A stretch of DNA of 64,000 nucleotides from Elusimicrobiota bacterium (GCA_016196755.1 JACPXC010000001.1:124001-188000), one strand, 5' to 3'; shown: positions 45,979-53,656, counted from the first letter of the stretch. Notes: generated from the sequence alone by a model not told the origin. A program made the numbers and translations.

Positions 45979-46114
45979 CGAATCCTAGGCGGCCATGCTG
46001 CGCGGTCTATGGGCGCCGTCGCGCGCCGCCCCCTCGTGGAGGTGACAGAGAAGGCATGGACGAAGTCCGTCTCCCTTGGGCCTTTGGGCCCTTCCCGCGC
46101 CCGTCCCGCTCTTG

Positions 46115-46120
46115 TATCAT
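46115..46120 (+). promoter_or_regulatory. -10 element of the coiled-coil gene
   Basis: TATCAT, 6 nt before the GTG at 46127; a leaderless start is predicted. Confidence 0.45.
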
Positions 46121-46126
46121 GGCCTC

Positions 46127-46603
46127 GTGGAGCGCAAATCCCAGCCGCCCGCCTCCAAGGCCGACCTCGCCGCCGTCAAGTCCGAGCTCAAGGGCGACCT
46201 CGCCGCCGTCAAGTCTGAGCTCAAGGCCGACCTCGCCGCCGTCAAGTCCGAGCTCAAGGGCGACCTCGCCGCCGTCAAGTCTGAGCTCAAGGGCGACCTC
46301 GCCGCCGTCAAGTCCGAGCTCAAAGGCGACATCGCCCGGCTGGACGTCAAAACAGACCGCATCGCCGCTGAGCTGGTCAAGACCCAGGGCCGCATGAAGG
46401 CCATCGAGGAAACCATGGCCACCAAGGACGACATCGGACGCGTCATCAAGGCCATCGACGCCTTTGCCGGCAAGCTCGAGACCTACGGCCGCGAGACCAT
46501 CCTTATCCCGAACGCCCTCGACGAACACGGCAAGACGCTCCGCAGTCACGGCTCCAAGCTCGATGACCATGAACGGCGGCTCGCCGAGGTCGAGAAGACT
46601 TAG
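46127..46603 (+). CDS. Coiled-coil protein with five hendecad repeats
   Basis: 158 residues from GTG 46127. After a short start (ERKSQPPASKA), five near-identical 11-residue units DLAAVKSELKG are followed by a degenerate sixth, then a longer heptad-like coil to the C-terminus (IEETMATKDDIGRVIKAID). An 11-residue period gives a slightly right-handed coil. No signal peptide, so cytoplasmic. It resembles DUF1640-like or phage/HTH-associated coiled-coil proteins, but no function can be assigned. An alternative longer start at 46076 lacks promoter support. Confidence 0.72.
   Translation: MERKSQPPASKADLAAVKSELKGDLAAVKSELKADLAAVKSELKGDLAAVKSELKGDLAAVKSELKGDIARLDVKTDRIAAELVKTQGRMKAIEETMATKDDIGRVIKAIDAFAGKLETYGRETILIPNALDEHGKTLRSHGSKLDDHERRLAEVEKT
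46163..46327 (+). repeat. Five tandem 33-bp repeats inside the coiled-coil gene
   Basis: Units start at 46163, 46196, 46229, 46262 and 46295, each encoding DLAAVKSELK plus G or A, with only one or two silent differences (tccgag/tctgag). The near identity points to recent expansion and a length that may vary between strains. Confidence 0.92.
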
Positions 46604-46621
46604 GCGCCGGCAAACGCGCAG

Positions 46622-46855
46622 CTGATCAGCCTGAAGGTTTCGGGCATGGACTGCGCGGCCTGCACCTCGGCGATCAAGAAATCCGTGGAGAAAGTCCCAG
46701 GAGTCTATTCGGCCAGCGTGGATTTCGACGCCCAGAGGGCACTGGTGGCCACGGACGGCAAAGCCGATTCCCAGGCGGTCCTTAAAGCTGTCGCCGTAGC
46801 CGGCTACAGGGCGGAAATTCTAGACGGAGGGGGCCATGGAAAGCCGCGCTCCTAG
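46622..46855 (+). CDS. HMA-type metal chaperone (possible CTG start)
   Basis: Single heavy-metal-associated domain with metal motif GMDCAACTSAIKKSVEKVPGV and C-terminal VAVAGYRAEIL. The first beta strand (LISLKVSG) lies upstream of the ATG at 46646. Only CTG codons (46622, 46631) can start it, since an in-frame stop ends the previous gene at 46603. I therefore extend to CTG 46622 (77 residues); with ATG 46646 the domain would lack strand 1 (69 residues). Such domains carry Cu(I), Hg(II) or other thiophilic metals. It overlaps the following CopZ-type gene by 20 nt. Confidence 0.7.
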   Translation: MISLKVSGMDCAACTSAIKKSVEKVPGVYSASVDFDAQRALVATDGKADSQAVLKAVAVAGYRAEILDGGGHGKPRS

Positions 46856-47303
46856 CCACGAGGCTTGCTGCCGGGTCAAGACGACGACCTGCCCCTGCCC
46901 GCTGTGCGGCAACGCCGGGCGCAAGGTGACCGCCGTGACGCTGGATCACCACGTCCCTCAGCGCTTGAGGGCCGCGATCGGCGACGACGCCGCCTTCTGC
47001 CTCAACCCCGCCTGCGAAGTCGTCTACTGCAATCCCGGCGGATTTGTCGTCCGAAAAGGGCAGACGACCCTGCCCGTGACGATAAAGGATTCGGGAGATC
47101 TTGTACCGGTCTGCTACTGCTTCGACTTCAAGCGCGGCGCCCTCCGGAAAGACCTGGCGGAGCGGGGGAAGACCGATATCCCGGAGCGAATCCGGCAGGG
47201 CATCGCCGAGGGCCGCTGCGCCTGCGAGCGCAAGAACCCGCAGGGAGCGTGCTGTCTGGGCAATGTGGCCGGAGCGATCAAGAAAATTCAAGGTGAGACT
47301 TGA
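46836..47303 (+). CDS. CopZ-type iron-sulfur metallochaperone
   Basis: 155 residues matching the N-terminal redox domain of Archaeoglobus CopZ, which binds a [2Fe-2S] cluster and Zn. Cys pairs are at CPCPLCGNAG, FCLNPACEVVYC, VCYCFDFK, CACERKNPQGACCLG. In Archaeoglobus this domain and an HMA domain form one protein; here the HMA domain is the preceding overlapping gene, so the two probably act together in Cu or Hg handling. A strong ribosome-binding site (GGAGGGGG) precedes the ATG. Confidence 0.88.
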   Translation: MESRAPSHEACCRVKTTTCPCPLCGNAGRKVTAVTLDHHVPQRLRAAIGDDAAFCLNPACEVVYCNPGGFVVRKGQTTLPVTIKDSGDLVPVCYCFDFKRGALRKDLAERGKTDIPERIRQGIAEGRCACERKNPQGACCLGNVAGAIKKIQGET

Positions 47304-47799: not shown

Positions 47800-50307
47800 T
47801 CAGCAGCAACTCCCCTCCGGCGCGCAGCAGGCCTCTTCCGCCGCGGGGCCGGTCGGCTCGCCCGACACGAAGAAACTCCCCGCATAGGGCGGGTGGGAGA
47901 GCTTCGCGGCGGTGTCGGTGCAGACTTCGACCGGCTCGTAGCGCGGGAAGAGATGGCCCTCCTCGTCGATGACGGCCTTGTGCGGGCCCAGATAGAGCGC
48001 GGTCTGGCCCACGAAGCGGCAGCCCGCTTTCTTCTCGAACTTGAAGCCGCGCACGGTCAGCGAGAAGAACTTGTAGCCTTCGACTTCCTTCCAGAACGTC
48101 CGCTTCAGGACCGAGACCCCGTAGAAGCCGGCCCGTTCGAGGCCGCTCAGGAACTCCTCCTCGGAAAGCGAGCCCGAGATGCACTCGCCCCACAGGTCCT
48201 TGTGGGCCTGGAGGTTGAGGGGCACGGGGCGGTCCGCCACGATGTCGGCCACCACGAGGCGGCCGTGGTCTTTGAGGATACGCCAGATTTCCGCGAAGAC
48301 CTTGGGCTTGTCGGGGGAGAGGTTGACTACGCAGTTGGAGGTCACGAGGTCCACGCTCTTGTCCTCGGCCGGCACCGTCTCGAGGTAGCCCTCGCGGAAG
48401 TCGACCACGTCGTAGCCGAGTTTCGCGGCCACCTGGGGACGGCACTCGCGCGCGACCTTGAGCATCTCGGCCGTCATATCGACGCCGATGACCTTTCCTG
48501 TCGGGCCGACCTTCTTGGCGGCGATGAAGCAGTCGATTCCTGCGCCGGAGCCCAGGTCCAAGGTCGTCTCCCCGGGCCGCACGCCGGCCGAGGAGATGGG
48601 GGAGCCGCAGCCGTAGAAGCGGTCGAGCACGGCCTGCGGGATATGCCCCACCTCGTCGTCCGAGTACTTCACGGGGCAGCAGAGCTCCTTTTGGGGCTCG
48701 ACGGCGGCCTTGCCGTAGAACCCCTGGACGATGCGGTAGGGGCGCTCCACGTCGAAGGCGAGGACGCAGTTGGAGTGGGTGAGGCGCACTTCCGGGGTCT
48801 TGCCGTCCTCCCCCAGCCAGTCCGTGGCGTCGTCGGAGCAGGTGAAGGCGTCCTGTCCCATGGCATGGAGGACGACCGGGGGACGGAACCCCGAGCGGGC
48901 GTTGAAGGCCGCGCGTTTGCCCTCGGCGAGCGCGAACATCTCGTCTTTCATGAGCTCCACATAGAGCGGGTGGTAGGGGTCGTGGCCTACCAGCGAGCCG
49001 GTATGCCCGTTCGAACTGAAGAAATAGCTGTGCTCGACGTCGCCGCCCCCGGTGAGGAACCTGAAGGGGTCGTTTTCCGCGCCCCCGGCCAGCGTCGCTT
49101 CCCGGAACTTCCGGGCCACGGGGCTGTCGAGCCATAAGGCTTTGAGGGAAGGCGTGTCCACGTCGCCGAGCTTAAGCTCCGGCAGGCCGGCCGTGGCCGC
49201 CGACGGGTAGACCCCGCCGTCCCGGTACAGGCACAGGCTCTCCCAGCACTGGTTGCCGAGATCGTTCTTGACGCCCGGGCGCCCGTTGGCGCGGCGGCGC
49301 AGGGACTCGGCGTTGTCGAGGACGAGACCGAGCCTGCCGGCCCCGTCCCGGACGCGGCGGGCCAGCGCGAGGAGTTCGGCGTTGGTCGGAAACGGGTCGC
49401 CGCCGGAGGAGACGATGCGGCCGCGCTTGTGGGCCCACATGAGGTGGAGCGACTTGGCTCCCAGGCGGGCGCCCAGCTCCGGCAGGGCTTCCAGGTCCTT
49501 GAGGTTCTCGCGCGTGACGACGGCGGTCAAGGAGGTCTCGAACCCCGCTTCGGCCAAGGCCGTCAGGCCCGCCGAGGCCTTCTGGAAGACCCCCTTGCCG
49601 CGGATGGCGTCGTTGACCGCGGCGGTCGCCCCGTCGAGGCTGACCTGGAACTTGAGCCTCGCCAGGTCGAAGGCGGCGAGCTTGGCCAGGCGCTCCGCCG
49701 TCAGCAAAGTCGCGTTGGTCATGATGACCAGCTCGGAGGCCTTCGTTTCGGTGACGAAGCCGACGAGGTCGAAGAGGTCGGGCCGGACGAACGGCTCGCC
49801 GCCGGTGAAAAAGAATCGGCGCGCGCCGAGGGCGTGCGCCTGTTCGATGACGGCTTCGAGAAACGCCTTCTCGGGGCCCTTCTCGCCGTCCGGACCCGAA
49901 GAGACCAGGCAGTGGGTGCAGGAGATGTTGCAGGTTTGCAGGAGGTGGACCCAGAACTCGGAGAGGCGCCGGGGCTCGAGGTGGGCGGAGCGTCCGGCGT
50001 AGCGCCGGTGGGGGATCGGCGAGAAGGAGAGGAGGCCGGCGTGGAGCAGCCCTCTGCTCAGGGATTGAACGTCAAGCCAGGATTGGGAAGCGTCCGCGCC
50101 CGACGACTCCGCGTGCAGGCGGCGGACCTCGCCGAGCGTCCGCGCGCCGTCGACGAGGGAGTAAAGGCCGGCGCCGCGCGCGTCCAGGGCCGCCCAATTG
50201 GGCGCGTCGCCGTCCACGAACACGAAGAGCCCGCCGCGCTCAAAGCGCGCTGCGTCCGGCTTATGGAGGATGGACGAGTCCTTGAGTTCCGCCGTGGTCG
50301 CAATCAT
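47800..50307 (-). CDS. Radical SAM enzyme fused to an ArsM-like methyltransferase
   Basis: 835 residues, start ATG 50307 with AAGGAGAT upstream. Domains: PqqD-like peptide-binding-type N-terminus at about 12-75; radical SAM core at about 117-330 with 4Fe-4S Cys126, Cys130, Cys133 (CNISCTHC) and TGGEP; short SPASM-like segment with Cys354 and Cys359; a linker region of about 130 residues; then a Rossmann methyltransferase at about 540-755. The last part has ELCCPVKYSDDEV, YGCGSP, LDLGSGAG, SNCVVNLSPDK and WGECISGSL. These last two match the As(III)-binding Cys of ArsM (here Cys659 and Cys709, with Cys543/544 and Cys567). It ends in a Cys-rich tail CCAPEGSCC. Predicted cytoplasmic, acting on a thiophilic metalloid or on a thiol-bound substrate; the reaction is unknown. 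It overlaps the PiT transporter gene (ATGA). Confidence 0.87.
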   Translation of the reverse strand: MIATTAELKDSSILHKPDAARFERGGLFVFVDGDAPNWAALDARGAGLYSLVDGARTLGEVRRLHAESSGADASQSWLDVQSLSRGLLHAGLLSFSPIPHRRYAGRSAHLEPRRLSEFWVHLLQTCNISCTHCLVSSGPDGEKGPEKAFLEAVIEQAHALGARRFFFTGGEPFVRPDLFDLVGFVTETKASELVIMTNATLLTAERLAKLAAFDLARLKFQVSLDGATAAVNDAIRGKGVFQKASAGLTALAEAGFETSLTAVVTRENLKDLEALPELGARLGAKSLHLMWAHKRGRIVSSGGDPFPTNAELLALARRVRDGAGRLGLVLDNAESLRRRANGRPGVKNDLGNQCWESLCLYRDGGVYPSAATAGLPELKLGDVDTPSLKALWLDSPVARKFREATLAGGAENDPFRFLTGGGDVEHSYFFSSNGHTGSLVGHDPYHPLYVELMKDEMFALAEGKRAAFNARSGFRPPVVLHAMGQDAFTCSDDATDWLGEDGKTPEVRLTHSNCVLAFDVERPYRIVQGFYGKAAVEPQKELCCPVKYSDDEVGHIPQAVLDRFYGCGSPISSAGVRPGETTLDLGSGAGIDCFIAAKKVGPTGKVIGVDMTAEMLKVARECRPQVAAKLGYDVVDFREGYLETVPAEDKSVDLVTSNCVVNLSPDKPKVFAEIWRILKDHGRLVVADIVADRPVPLNLQAHKDLWGECISGSLSEEEFLSGLERAGFYGVSVLKRTFWKEVEGYKFFSLTVRGFKFEKKAGCRFVGQTALYLGPHKAVIDEEGHLFPRYEPVEVCTDTAAKLSHPPYAGSFFVSGEPTGPAAEEACCAPEGSCC

Positions 50308-51290
50308 GTCGATCTCCTTAAAATCCAATAACAGGCCACTCCCAATGCGCCGGCCGTCGGGATGGTGACGAGCCAAGCCAAGGCGATCTGCCCGACGGTC
50401 GCCAGATTCAGGCCGCCCTTGCCGCCGCGCAAGCCGATGCCGATGATAGCGGAACTTGAGACATGCGTGGTGGACACCGGAAACCCCTGGAGGGCCGTGC
50501 CCACCACGAGCGCCGTCGTGGCCAAGTTCGCCGCGAAGCCCTCCAGGTGGTCCATTTTCGTCACCTTGTGGGCCAGGGTCTCGGTGACCTTGAGCCCCAT
50601 CACGATGCCGCCGACGGCGTTGGCCGCCGCGAGGACCAAGAAGAACCAGCGCGGCGCCACCGTCACCGAGGGGTCCAGGACCGCGTAAAAGAAGAAGCCC
50701 AGCCCCGCGATCTTCGGGGTGTCATTTAGCCCGCGGGCGAAGCCGCTGGCCAGGGCGCTCGCCCAGTGGGCCCAATGGCAGTTGAGGCAGTACTGCTCCC
50801 GGCAGAGCCAATGGAGGAATCGGAAGGAGAGCCAGGCTCCGCCGAAGGCGACGAAGGGCGAGAGGAGGAGGGGGAGGGCCACCTTGCGGCCCACGCTCGA
50901 CCACAGCACCTGGTCGAACCCGAAGGCGTAGACCCCGGTCAGGACGGTGGCGCCGACGATGGCGTGGGTGGTCGAGACGGGCATGCCGAAGCGGGCCGCC
51001 AGCAGGACCCAGCCGACGGCGCCGCCGAGGATGGCGAGGGCGAAGGCCTGGTTGAGCTGGACCTGCGGCGAGAGCATCCCTTTGGTGAAAAGCAGGATCA
51101 TCTTCACCGCCCAGGCCGAGGCCAACACCCCGCCGGCGGCCACCGCCAGCGAGGTGACGAGCACGGCCTTTCGGTAATCGGACTCCCCGCTGCCGACCAA
51201 GGTGGCGATGGATTTCGAGATGTCGTTGGCGCCGTTGGCGAAGGCCAGCGCCGCGGCGGCGCCCATCCCTATGATGATCGTGGTTTCCAT
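50304..51290 (-). CDS. PiT-family inorganic phosphate transporter
   Basis: 328 residues with about ten membrane helices and the duplicated PiT signatures: GANDISKSIATLVGSG near the start, GMPVSTTHAIVGA, GLNDTPK, and GFPVSTTHVSSSAIIGIG. Transports phosphate (as metal phosphate) with protons or Na+; low-affinity PiT carriers also admit arsenate. It is cotranscribed with the radical SAM-methyltransferase fusion, whose ATG overlaps its stop. It is divergent from the TVP38/MerA-like genes. A GACAAT -10 ends 6 nt before the ATG. Confidence 0.93.
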   Translation of the reverse strand: METTIIIGMGAAAALAFANGANDISKSIATLVGSGESDYRKAVLVTSLAVAAGGVLASAWAVKMILLFTKGMLSPQVQLNQAFALAILGGAVGWVLLAARFGMPVSTTHAIVGATVLTGVYAFGFDQVLWSSVGRKVALPLLLSPFVAFGGAWLSFRFLHWLCREQYCLNCHWAHWASALASGFARGLNDTPKIAGLGFFFYAVLDPSVTVAPRWFFLVLAAANAVGGIVMGLKVTETLAHKVTKMDHLEGFAANLATTALVVGTALQGFPVSTTHVSSSAIIGIGLRGGKGGLNLATVGQIALAWLVTIPTAGALGVACYWILRRST

Positions 51291-51355: not shown

Positions 51356-51543
51356 ATGGCCACGACTACCATCCGCGGGGGAATCGACGATGCCGCGGCG
51401 GACGTCGCCCCGCTCGAGAAGCGGATTCTGGCCCGCTTGGCCGGCCTCTGAGATCCGGGTCCGTAACGATTCACGCCTTTCGCGGACTCAGGGGCATGGA
51501 GACGATCCTGCTGACGCTGTCGCTCAACGAGGGCAAGAGATGA
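51356..51543 (+). other. Short, probably frameshifted leader gene before TVP38
   Basis: From ATG 51356 the frame reads 31 codons (MATTTIRGGIDDAAADVAPL then EKRILARLAGL) to a stop at 51451. Another frame with METILLTLSLNEGKR ends at 51543 in an ATGA overlap with TVP38. The promoter spacing at one end and the coupling at the other suggest one gene of about 62 codons broken by an indel, or a sequencing error. Family unknown. Confidence 0.3.
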
Positions 51544-52151
51544 GGGAGCTATTGTCCTCCGCGTTGGTCTGGGTCGGCGCGTCCGGCGTCGTCGGCCAGG
51601 CGGCCTTCGTGGCGCTCTACGTCCTTGCCTGCGTGGCCTTCCTCCCGGGGTCGGTCCTCACGCTGGGGGCCGGGGCGATCTTCGGGCTTTGGCGGGGATT
51701 TTTCCTCGTCTCGCTGGCTTCGACGCTGGGCGCCTGCGCGGCCATGCTGGTCGGCCGGTTCCTCCTGCGCGATTGGGTCGCGCGCCGCCTCGCGGCCTTC
51801 CCGGCCTTCGAGGCGGTTCGGGGCGCGGTGGCGGCGGAGGGCTGGAAGGTCGTCGCGTTGACCCGGCTCTCGCCGGTCCTCCCTTTCTCCCTGCTGAACT
51901 ATGCCTACGGCCTGACCGACGTGGGCCTCAAGGAGTACGCGCTGGCCTCCTGGCTGGGGATGATGCCGGGGACGCTGCTGTTCGTCTATCTCGGGGCGGC
52001 GGCGGGCGAAGTGGCGCGCTCCGGCCGGCAGGGCCGGTCCCCCGCGGAATGGGCGTTTTTCGCCGCGGGGCTGGGCGCCACGGCCCTGGCGGCCTGGCTG
52101 GTCGGCAAGAAGGCCAAGGCGGCGTTGGCCGCCAGGGTGGAGGTCCGATGA
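51540..52151 (+). CDS. TVP38/TMEM64-family membrane protein
   Basis: 203 residues with about five hydrophobic segments and the SNARE-associated/VTT-domain core: FLPGSVLTLGAGAIFGLWRGF, GACAAMLVGRFLLRDWV, then ALTRLSPVLPFSLLNYAYGLT and MMPGTLLFVYLGAAAGE. The family includes DedA-like lipid scramblase relatives; a transport role with the partner reductase has been proposed but not shown. The gene order TVP38-pyridine nucleotide disulfide reductase, here with ATGA overlap, recurs in many bacteria. Confidence 0.9.
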   Translation: MRELLSSALVWVGASGVVGQAAFVALYVLACVAFLPGSVLTLGAGAIFGLWRGFFLVSLASTLGACAAMLVGRFLLRDWVARRLAAFPAFEAVRGAVAAEGWKVVALTRLSPVLPFSLLNYAYGLTDVGLKEYALASWLGMMPGTLLFVYLGAAAGEVARSGRQGRSPAEWAFFAAGLGATALAAWLVGKKAKAALAARVEVR

Positions 52152-53656
52152 GTCTCGTTTCCCCGATGGACGCGCACAATACCCGATTGCTGGCGAGCGT
52201 CCACCCTCCGGATTGGGCCAACCCGGAGCCCGCCGGGCGCTACAACCTCGTGGTCTTGGGGGCGGGCACCGCGGGGCTCGTCACGGCCATCGGAGCCGCC
52301 GGGCTGGGCGCCAAGGTGGCGCTCGTCGAGCGCCATCTGATGGGGGGAGACTGCCTGAACGTCGGCTGCGTCCCTTCGAAGGCCCTCATCCGGGCCTCGC
52401 GCGCGGCCGCGGCCGCGCGCCGCGCCGGCGACTTCGGGGTGCGGGTCTCAGGAGTCTCGGTGGACTTCGCGGCCGTGATGGAACGGCTCCGCCGCCTGCG
52501 GGCCGACATCGGCGCCAACGACTCCGCCAAACGGTTCAAGGACGCCGGGGTCGACGTGTTCCTGGGACCGGCGCGCTTCAGCGGCCCCGACACGGTCTCG
52601 GTCGAAGGGAAGACGCTGCGTTTTTCTAAGGCGGTCATCGCTACCGGCGCCCGGGCGGTAGAATTGCCCATCCCCGGCCTCAAAGAGGCGGGGTACCTGA
52701 CAAACGAGACGGTCTTCAACCTGACCGAGCTGCCGCGCAGGCTGGCCGTCATCGGGGCGGGCCCCATCGGCTGCGAGCTGGCCCAGGCTTTCCGGCGCCT
52801 GGGCTCCGCGGTGCACCTCCTCGAGGCGATGGGCCAGATCCTCATCCGCGAGGACCGGGACGCGGCCGTCATCGTCGAGAAGACCTTCGCGCGCGAAGGC
52901 ATCATGTTTTCCTGCAACCACGACGTCTCGCGCGTGGAGCGGCGCGGGAAGGAGAAGGTGCTCTTCACGAAATGCGACTGCCATCCCGACGGCCTGACGG
53001 TCGATGAGATCCTCGTGGGCGTCGGGCGCGCCCCGAACGTCGAAGGCCTCAATCTCGAAGGGGTCGGAGTCGAGTTCTCGAAGACCGGGGTCAAGGTGGA
53101 CGACTTCCTGCGTACGACCAACCCGCGCATCTTCGCCGCCGGGGACATCTGCCTGGGCCCCAAGTTCACCCACACGGCGGATTTTTCCGCGCGCATCGTC
53201 ATCCAGAACGCGCTCTTCTTCGGCCGCAAGCGCATGAGCGCCTTGACCATCCCCTGGTGCACCTACACCGACCCGGAAATCGCCCATGTCGGCCTTTACG
53301 AGAAGGACGCCAAGGACCGAGGGCTCCGGGTGCGGACCTTCGTGCAGGAGCTCAAAGACGTGGACCGGGCGGTCCTGGACGGGGAGGCGGAAGGCTTCGC
53401 CAAGATTCTCGTCGAGGTTGGGACGGACCGCATCCTCGGGGCGACCATAGTGGCCGCCCATGCCGGGGACATGATCAGCGAGGTCTCGGTGGCGATCAAC
53501 AACGGGGTCGGGCTCGCCGGCATCGGCGCCACCATCCATCCCTACCCGACCCAGGCCGAGGCTCTGCGGCGTTTGGGGGACGCCTACAACCGCACGCGCC
53601 TGACCCCGCTCATTCGAAATTTCTTAGGCGCCTGGCTATCCTGGACTCGCGGCTGA
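52148..53656 (+). CDS. MerA/lipoamide dehydrogenase-like flavoprotein disulfide reductase
   Basis: 502 residues. FAD site VLGAGTAGLVTAIGAAGLG, redox-active Cys69 and Cys74 in GGDCLNVGCVPSKA, NAD(P) site VIGAGPIGCELAQAF, second FAD site NPRIFAAGDICLGPKFTH, and C-terminal HPYPTQAEA. It lacks the N-terminal HMA domain and the C-terminal Cys pair of true mercuric reductase, so reduction of Hg(II) is doubtful. An HMA domain is nevertheless encoded separately 5 kb away. It is coupled to TVP38 (ATGA). Substrate unknown. Confidence 0.9.
   Translation: MSLVSPMDAHNTRLLASVHPPDWANPEPAGRYNLVVLGAGTAGLVTAIGAAGLGAKVALVERHLMGGDCLNVGCVPSKALIRASRAAAAARRAGDFGVRVSGVSVDFAAVMERLRRLRADIGANDSAKRFKDAGVDVFLGPARFSGPDTVSVEGKTLRFSKAVIATGARAVELPIPGLKEAGYLTNETVFNLTELPRRLAVIGAGPIGCELAQAFRRLGSAVHLLEAMGQILIREDRDAAVIVEKTFAREGIMFSCNHDVSRVERRGKEKVLFTKCDCHPDGLTVDEILVGVGRAPNVEGLNLEGVGVEFSKTGVKVDDFLRTTNPRIFAAGDICLGPKFTHTADFSARIVIQNALFFGRKRMSALTIPWCTYTDPEIAHVGLYEKDAKDRGLRVRTFVQELKDVDRAVLDGEAEGFAKILVEVGTDRILGATIVAAHAGDMISEVSVAINNGVGLAGIGATIHPYPTQAEALRRLGDAYNRTRLTPLIRNFLGAWLSWTRG

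Follow-up and report, generated by a model that had tools for sequence, protein, structure and literature searches.

Which reaction is performed by a protein that joins a radical S-adenosylmethionine (SAM) enzyme and an arsenite methyltransferase-like domain in one chain? This question is raised by a 64,000-nucleotide stretch of the genome of an Elusimicrobiota bacterium (GCA_016196755.1, JACPXC010000001.1:124001-188000), from now on called the window. A gene at positions 47800..50307 of its minus strand encodes a fusion of an RRE-like domain, a radical SAM-SPASM region and an ArsM-type methyltransferase. In Synechocystis, ArsM and ArsS catalyze the first steps of arsenosugar formation, and ArsS adenosylates arsenic in oxo-arsenosugar biosynthesis (PMC12159101, PMC8552651). 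The best reading of our results is that the protein is the fused, non-orthologous core of an arsenosugar cassette and represents a variant on the known core of ArsM and ArsS. Its placement in the arsenosugar pathway is likely. With moderate confidence we further propose that this one chain replaces both ArsM and ArsS, in that it would methylate As(III) and then attach a 5'-deoxyadenosyl group.

The Fused Gene Is Intact and Recurs in Several Phyla

The gene starts with an ATG codon at position 50307 and ends with a stop codon at 47802-47800, which gives an intact open reading frame of 835 amino acids with Pfam and NCBIfam matches to both halves, a radical SAM core and a class I methyltransferase. 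The initial annotation had placed an 835-residue protein exactly there without stating the strand. The sequence motifs it listed were all recovered, namely CNISCTHC (residues 126-133), ELCC (541-544), YGCG (565-568), SNCVVNLSPDK (657-667), WGECISGSL (706-714) and the tail CCAPEGSCC (827-835). The two-domain architecture it described is found in full-length co-linear homologues from more than 30 genomes, far beyond what chance would produce. Sequence identity to these homologues amounts to 55-84% within the Elusimicrobiota, 45-49% for anammox Planctomycetota, 55-59% for a member of the Nitrospiria and 52% for a metagenome-assembled genome (MAG) of the Acidobacteria. Since more than 30 independent genomes carry the same architecture, linker included, a misassembly of two genes was ruled out. 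When the linker alone served as query, 10 of 248 genomes of the Elusimicrobiota and 12 of 294 of the Planctomycetota were found to carry the fusion. The plasmid collection contained no full-length match and just two matches to the methyltransferase half, with at most 40% identity. No description of a radical SAM-ArsM fusion was found by literature search, which is weak evidence as most subscription papers lie outside such a search.

Two irregular cases were encountered among the homologues. Open frames of 1372-1423 amino acids at two Planctomycetota loci (L104 and L105; loci are numbered with the prefix L) contain no extra domains and were dismissed as upstream open-frame artefacts of high-GC DNA. 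In a Scalindua MAG a second, partial copy of the C-terminus lies downstream of the full gene (L011, 10458-11325) and is perhaps the remnant of a duplication.

The C-Terminal Half Is an ArsM-Type Methyltransferase

All coordinates of protein regions given here and below refer to the minus strand of the window. The ArsM-type As(III) methyltransferase comprises residues 526-835 (47803..48732). Residues 554-817 matched solved arsenite methyltransferases in a phmmer search of the PDB (8e-40), the closest solved proteins by sequence being ArsM and human AS3MT, a profile of the family aligned residues 520-824 with ArsM (5evj), and Pfam Methyltransf_31 was detected at residues 578-725 (4.5e-32). An AlphaFold model of the protein (mean predicted local distance difference test score, pLDDT, 75.6; predicted template-modelling score 0.59) shows a radical SAM barrel, a whole ArsM-like domain and a flexible linker. 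Using this model as query, Foldseek returned ArsM and AS3MT structures first (4fs8 with E=8.9e-24 and 37% identity; 5evj; 8xt7), followed by SkfB, SuiB and CteB.

The cysteine residues C567, C659 and C709 correspond by motif to the As-binding cysteines of ArsM (C72/C174/C224 in CmArsM). The region further holds a C-terminal domain with C763 and C796 and a CC...CC tail. In an alignment of 33 homologues C126/130/133, C514, C543/544, C567, C659, C709, C763, C796 and C834/835 were invariant (33/33). Thus, the arsenite methyltransferase Cys landmarks proposed earlier, including the As-binding cysteines, are present in every relative. The Cys-rich tail, which had been noted as well, does exist but is not specific for the fusion, because stand-alone ArsM proteins of the cassette described below also end in CC. 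A selenoprotein tail was ruled out, the examined tails ending in CC and not in selenocysteine.

In a tree of the methyltransferase half (midpoint root, long branches and limited sampling) all 22 fused sequences formed one group with a support of 97. This group sits with cassette-borne stand-alone ArsM proteins (support 97), apart from other stand-alone ArsM-like proteins. The possibility that this half belongs to non-metalloid families therefore failed.

A family-specific, partly flexible linker (residues 431-525; 48733..49017) connects both halves. It carries C514 and C490, the latter conserved in 31/33 homologues, and the pLDDT falls below 50 at residues 487-504 and 511-546. A domain search with the linker, as suggested in the initial annotation, gave no Pfam match up to E=10.

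The N-Terminal Half Resembles CteB

The radical SAM core extends over residues 116-300 (49408..49962) with its CX3CX2C motif at positions 126/130/133. Pfam Radical_SAM (PF04055) was matched at residues 124-275 (2.5e-19), and the best PDB matches of this half by phmmer were radical SAM enzymes. A PqqD/RRE-like winged-helix domain precedes the core (residues 13-95; 50023..50271). The window protein itself did not match PF05402 in a Pfam search up to E=10. Among its relatives the model scored 28.7 bits at L046 (cut-off 23.4) and remained below the cut-off at L013 (20.6), L002 (17.6) and L045 (17.5). The predicted structure contains a confident winged helix of three strands and three helices at residues ~13-90 (pLDDT ~90). 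The PqqD-like N-terminus that had been proposed is thus real, though divergent. Using the family profile, residues 20-437 were aligned with CteB (5wgg), whose radical SAM/SPASM part is preceded by an RRE at the N-terminus. The N-terminal half is a PqqD/RRE-like winged helix followed by a radical SAM/SPASM-type enzyme, with CteB as the closest solved relative.

The SPASM/twitch-like region (residues 350-430; 49018..49260) retains C354, C359 and a GGGDxEH motif, while later cysteines are lost. SPASM-family models align across this region in L002, and in the relatives from Planctomycetota and Acidobacteriota it ends with CxxCxxxxxCGGGDxEH. In the clade of the window, which includes the Elusimicrobiota and the Nitrospirota member, the SPASM cysteines at residues ~380-419 (~49050-49170) have disappeared and GGGDxEH remains. 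This pattern suggests that one branch lost an auxiliary Fe-S cluster.

The Fused Gene Lies in an Arsenosugar Cassette

Clustering of shared neighbours exposed a gene cassette around the fusion. Neighbourhoods were defined by tblastn with the cassette proteins, as longest open reading frame calls are unreliable in high-GC loci. The recurrent set consists of a PHO4 permease, the fusion, the glycosyltransferases TIGR04283 and TIGR04282, a DUF547 or DUF3047 protein, a TVP38/VTT protein and a PRK06370-type flavin adenine dinucleotide (FAD) oxidoreductase; MerR, MerT-HMA and CopZ are found near it at some loci. Both glycosyltransferase families are labelled in NCBIfam as arsenosugar biosynthesis glycosyltransferases. 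At L001 they are encoded just downstream of the fusion, with 233 bits for TIGR04283 (cut-off 182) and 191 bits for TIGR04282 (cut-off 134). The cassette recurs around diverged fusions of Acidobacteriota and Planctomycetota, and glycosyltransferases are located near the fusion in Elusimicrobiota as well. Within 10 kb of 39 fused loci a cassette glycosyltransferase was detected at 18, PHO4 at 24 and any cassette gene at 35. The corresponding number for stand-alone arsM-like loci was 0/12, several of these loci being short.

The same cassette accommodates other cores. At L048, from the same order as the genome of the window, it encloses a true ArsS (425 bits, cut-off 300) beside a separate ArsM, surrounded by PHO4, TVP38, DUF547, the FAD oxidoreductase, CopZ, MerR, TIGR04283 and TIGR04282. 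The two enzyme types joined in the fusion also exist here as adjacent separate genes. The cassettes at L052 and L054 contain ArsM and a different radical SAM protein of ~280 amino acids, which remains under the ArsS cut-off. Their PHO4 proteins are 83-84% identical to that of the window and closer to it than the PHO4 proteins of most fused cassettes, as expected for a core swap beneath a conserved flank.

Two further radical SAM types were observed in this survey. The ~280-residue type, sub-threshold for ArsS and ending with ...HCASFCVLGGGSC, adjoins a stand-alone ArsM in several Elusimicrobiota at L049-L055 and L057 (e.g. L052:7174-8205); strong TIGR04282/TIGR04283 neighbours were present only at L052 and L054. 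A third type, ending with ACYTCHATGFSCRT or similar, is encoded beside TIGR04283 and TIGR04282 at L060 (6730-7605), L061 (6268-7137) and L062 (4173-5024), where ArsM was not seen nearby. L060 additionally contains a metallophosphoesterase, DUF547, TVP38 and MerR/MerT. Either the third type is a further core or the cassette serves a purpose unrelated to arsenic at these loci.

The fusion and ArsS exclude each other. Searches of the window's own genome and of 14 further genomes with the fusion revealed no ArsS above the cut-off. Among 294 Planctomycetota genomes TIGR04282 accompanied the fusion in 11 of 12 cases and occurred in 99 of the 282 genomes lacking the fusion (P=1.2e-4; this and the following P values ignore shared ancestry). 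The 110 TIGR04282-positive genomes of this phylum comprised 58 with ArsS only, 11 with the fusion only, 41 with neither and none with both (P=1.4e-4). For 57 Elusimicrobiota genomes TIGR04282 was found in 8 of 9 carrying the fusion and in 8-9 of the remaining 48 (P about 1e-4). The idea of a single chain combining the radical SAM and ArsM activities of arsenosugar-type pathways, raised in the initial annotation, is strongly supported by the core position in the cassette together with the exclusion of ArsS.

Proposed Reaction and Alternative Explanations

Cassette position and ArsS exclusion make it most likely that the fusion covers the ArsM and ArsS steps. In the proposed mechanism the C-terminal ArsM-type half would bind As(III) via C567, C659 and C709 and methylate it, probably in two methylations to dimethylarsenite. 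Another SAM molecule would then be cleaved by the radical SAM/SPASM-type half at the N-terminus, and its 5'-deoxyadenosyl group would be coupled to the methylated, trivalent arsenic in the manner of ArsS from Synechocystis. We infer a direct hand-over between the two sites, which may proceed via the thiols of the linker (C490, C514, C543/544) and of the tail. The TIGR04282 and TIGR04283 glycosyltransferases and their partners would then complete the arsenosugar.

Several observations weigh against this proposal. The ArsS model TIGR04167 gave only 66.8 bits on the radical SAM half (cut-off 300) and covered only model positions 2-151 of 303. The CX3CX2C motif is common to ArsS and the fusion. 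The C-terminal Cys-rich domain of ArsS with its CTAGAGSSC-type motif, present in ArsS of L048 and L069, is absent from the fusion, and no Pfam domain matching it was found there. By these comparisons the radical SAM half is non-orthologous to ArsS; therefore, a conserved reaction is only assumed. An RRE-like domain normally binds a peptide, which arsenosugar synthesis does not need. The methyltransferase half stays below the cut-offs of all NCBIfam ArsM models (NF008823 231/263, NF040538 200/500 and NF038099 150/400 bits), which is why we call it ArsM-type and not a model member; the ArsM beside the true ArsS also misses these cut-offs. The fusion of the window has PHO4, TVP38 and the FAD oxidoreductase next to it but not the glycosyltransferase pair, which is likewise non-adjacent at the anammox loci. 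Finally, the co-occurrence values carry the ancestry caveat given above, and both the fusion and an ArsS above the cut-off are missing from 41/110 Planctomycetota genomes positive for TIGR04282, so that further core types or other roles of TIGR04282 probably exist.

These genomes also speak for a rather unlikely alternative, in which the arsenosugar context is right and an unrecognised enzyme forms the adenosylated C-As bond, the radical SAM half performing another step such as nucleoside or sugar remodelling or the addition of a third carbon substituent. Further core enzymes may exist where both cores are missing, and a SPASM-type protein non-orthologous to ArsS would suit such a role. However, the fusion occupies exactly the place of ArsS and ArsM, its exclusion of ArsS argues that the ArsS step is covered, and the neighbours shared between cassettes include no other recurrent radical SAM gene. 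It is unlikely, too, that the fusion synthesizes another organoarsenical, with the radical SAM half moving a 3-amino-3-carboxypropyl (ACP) group to As(III) as ArsL does, the ArsM half methylating once and the cassette decorating the product. In its favour, cooperation of a radical SAM enzyme with ArsM has been proven for ArsL (PMC8552651), the radical SAM half of the fusion is distinct from ArsS, and among the NCBIfam models the arsinothricin ArsM NF040538 ranks second for the methyltransferase half (200 bits), above AsSugarArsM (150 bits). This order does not discriminate, since the ArsM beside the true ArsS in L048 shows it as well (156 versus 118 bits). The cassette moreover holds sugar-pathway glycosyltransferases, the fusion excludes ArsS among TIGR04282-positive genomes, and the permease belongs to the PHO4 family, an arsQ-type GntP permease not being seen. 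No ArsL model was among the best 25 NCBIfam matches; no ArsL sequence was compared.

The initial annotation had offered a peptide substrate as a second option. In a pathway for ribosomally synthesized and post-translationally modified peptides, the RRE-like domain would recruit a peptide, the radical SAM/SPASM part would modify it and the methyltransferase would load or methylate a bound metalloid, yielding a metal-thiol peptide. The PqqD domain recognised in relatives fits this scheme, as does the profile of the N-terminal half, for which the best alignment was obtained with the sactipeptide maturase CteB and its RRE and SPASM domains. We nevertheless consider it very improbable. A conserved precursor-peptide gene is missing: there is no room for one upstream in the window, where the fusion overlaps its neighbour by 4 bases, or on either side of the fusion in L001 (~10-20 bases). 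Most SPASM cysteines are lost in the Elusimicrobiota clade, ArsS, which occurs in the same cassette, requires no peptide, and PqqD-like domains are also present in radical SAM proteins that are not known to act on peptides. There is equally little to recommend plain arsenite detoxification by a methyltransferase whose radical SAM domain is accessory and serves redox or regulation only. Mer-type regulators, HMA and CopZ proteins and a mercuric-reductase-like enzyme are encoded close by, but the cassette was missing from all 12 stand-alone arsM-like loci, and the strict invariance of the CX3CX2C cysteines argues that selection maintains the radical SAM half for catalysis.

A variant that we regard as quite doubtful gives the RRE-like domain a new role. 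It might hold the protein's own Cys-rich segments, the C490/C514 linker and the CC...CC tail, as a carrier arm in cis, so that thiol-bound trivalent arsenic would pass from the methyltransferase site to the SPASM-type radical SAM site, with a C-As bond chemistry independent of ArsS. If true, the fusion would be a self-carrying metalloid assembly enzyme without known counterpart.

Other Genes of the Window

Next to the fusion a PHO4-family permease is encoded on the minus strand (50304..51290; PF01384 2e-56). Due to the overlap of 4 bases with the start of the fused gene both probably form one transcription unit. Two cassette genes follow on the plus strand, a TVP38/VTT-domain membrane protein (51471..52151, start approximate; PF09335 1.9e-25) and a mercuric-reductase-like FAD oxidoreductase (52154..53656; NF004991 801 bits, cut-off 620), which is 62% identical to the cassette copy of L001. 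On the other side of the fusion a metallochaperone resembling the CopZ N-terminus, of the [2Fe-2S]/zinc type, is encoded on the plus strand (46836..47303; NF047645 110 bits, cut-off 100; PF18423); CopZ-like genes also belong to the L048, L052 and L094 cassettes. It is preceded by an open reading frame for a MerP-like HMA metal-binding protein (46604..46855, plus strand, start codon uncertain), 48% identical to the C-terminal part of the MerT-HMA protein of L044, where Pfam recognises HMA. Directly ahead of these two genes lies an open reading frame with repeated, coiled-coil-like KSELKGDLAAV units (46076-46603, plus strand). The TIGR04283-TIGR04282 pair of this genome was located on another contig (C3:59426-60660) and is the sole copy of each above the cut-off.

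Relation to Known Systems and Implications

The fusion shares with the ArsM and ArsS pair (Synechocystis SsArsM/SsArsS; TIGR04167 and NF038099) the cassette, as in L048, the two enzyme types, the ArsM C-terminal domain and the CC tail. It differs from this pair by its single chain, the RRE and SPASM type of its radical SAM half and the separate clade of its methyltransferase half. With ArsM/AS3MT (PDB 4fs8, 5evj, 8xt7) it has in common the fold of the whole domain, three As-binding cysteines and the CC motif, whereas the attached radical SAM enzyme and the scores under all curated NCBIfam ArsM cut-offs set it apart. CteB-type maturases (PDB 5wgg/5why), MftC and PqqE show the same order of RRE-like winged helix, radical SAM and SPASM domains, alignable over residues 20-437; in contrast to the CteB type, the fusion has no precursor peptide gene, has lost part of its SPASM cysteines in the clade of the window, is joined to ArsM and resides in an arsenic cassette. 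ArsL and ArsM of arsinothricin synthesis likewise combine a radical SAM enzyme and ArsM on a C-As bond, but they are separate proteins without a glycosyltransferase cassette, and ArsL transfers the ACP group. The selenoprotein ArsM fusions (NF041537, ArsM/AhpD; NF041536, ArsM/DUF2284) also join ArsM to a further domain; unlike our protein they use other partner domains, contain selenocysteine and lack a radical SAM part.

In marine food chains a large share of the organic arsenic is present as arsenosugars and arsenolipids. To our knowledge ArsS is the only adenosylating enzyme known for these compounds. If our interpretation is true, different radical SAM enzymes have been slotted into one cassette, and a single polypeptide would be available for studying how a toxic trivalent intermediate is transferred between active sites. 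The arsenosugar pathway would extend to organisms that seem to be without it owing to their missing ArsS, namely Elusimicrobiota, the anammox bacteria Scalindua and Anammoxibacter, other Planctomycetota, Nitrospirota and Acidobacteriota. The fusion may thus constitute an unrecognised bacterial route, anammox bacteria included, from toxic arsenite to arsenosugars.

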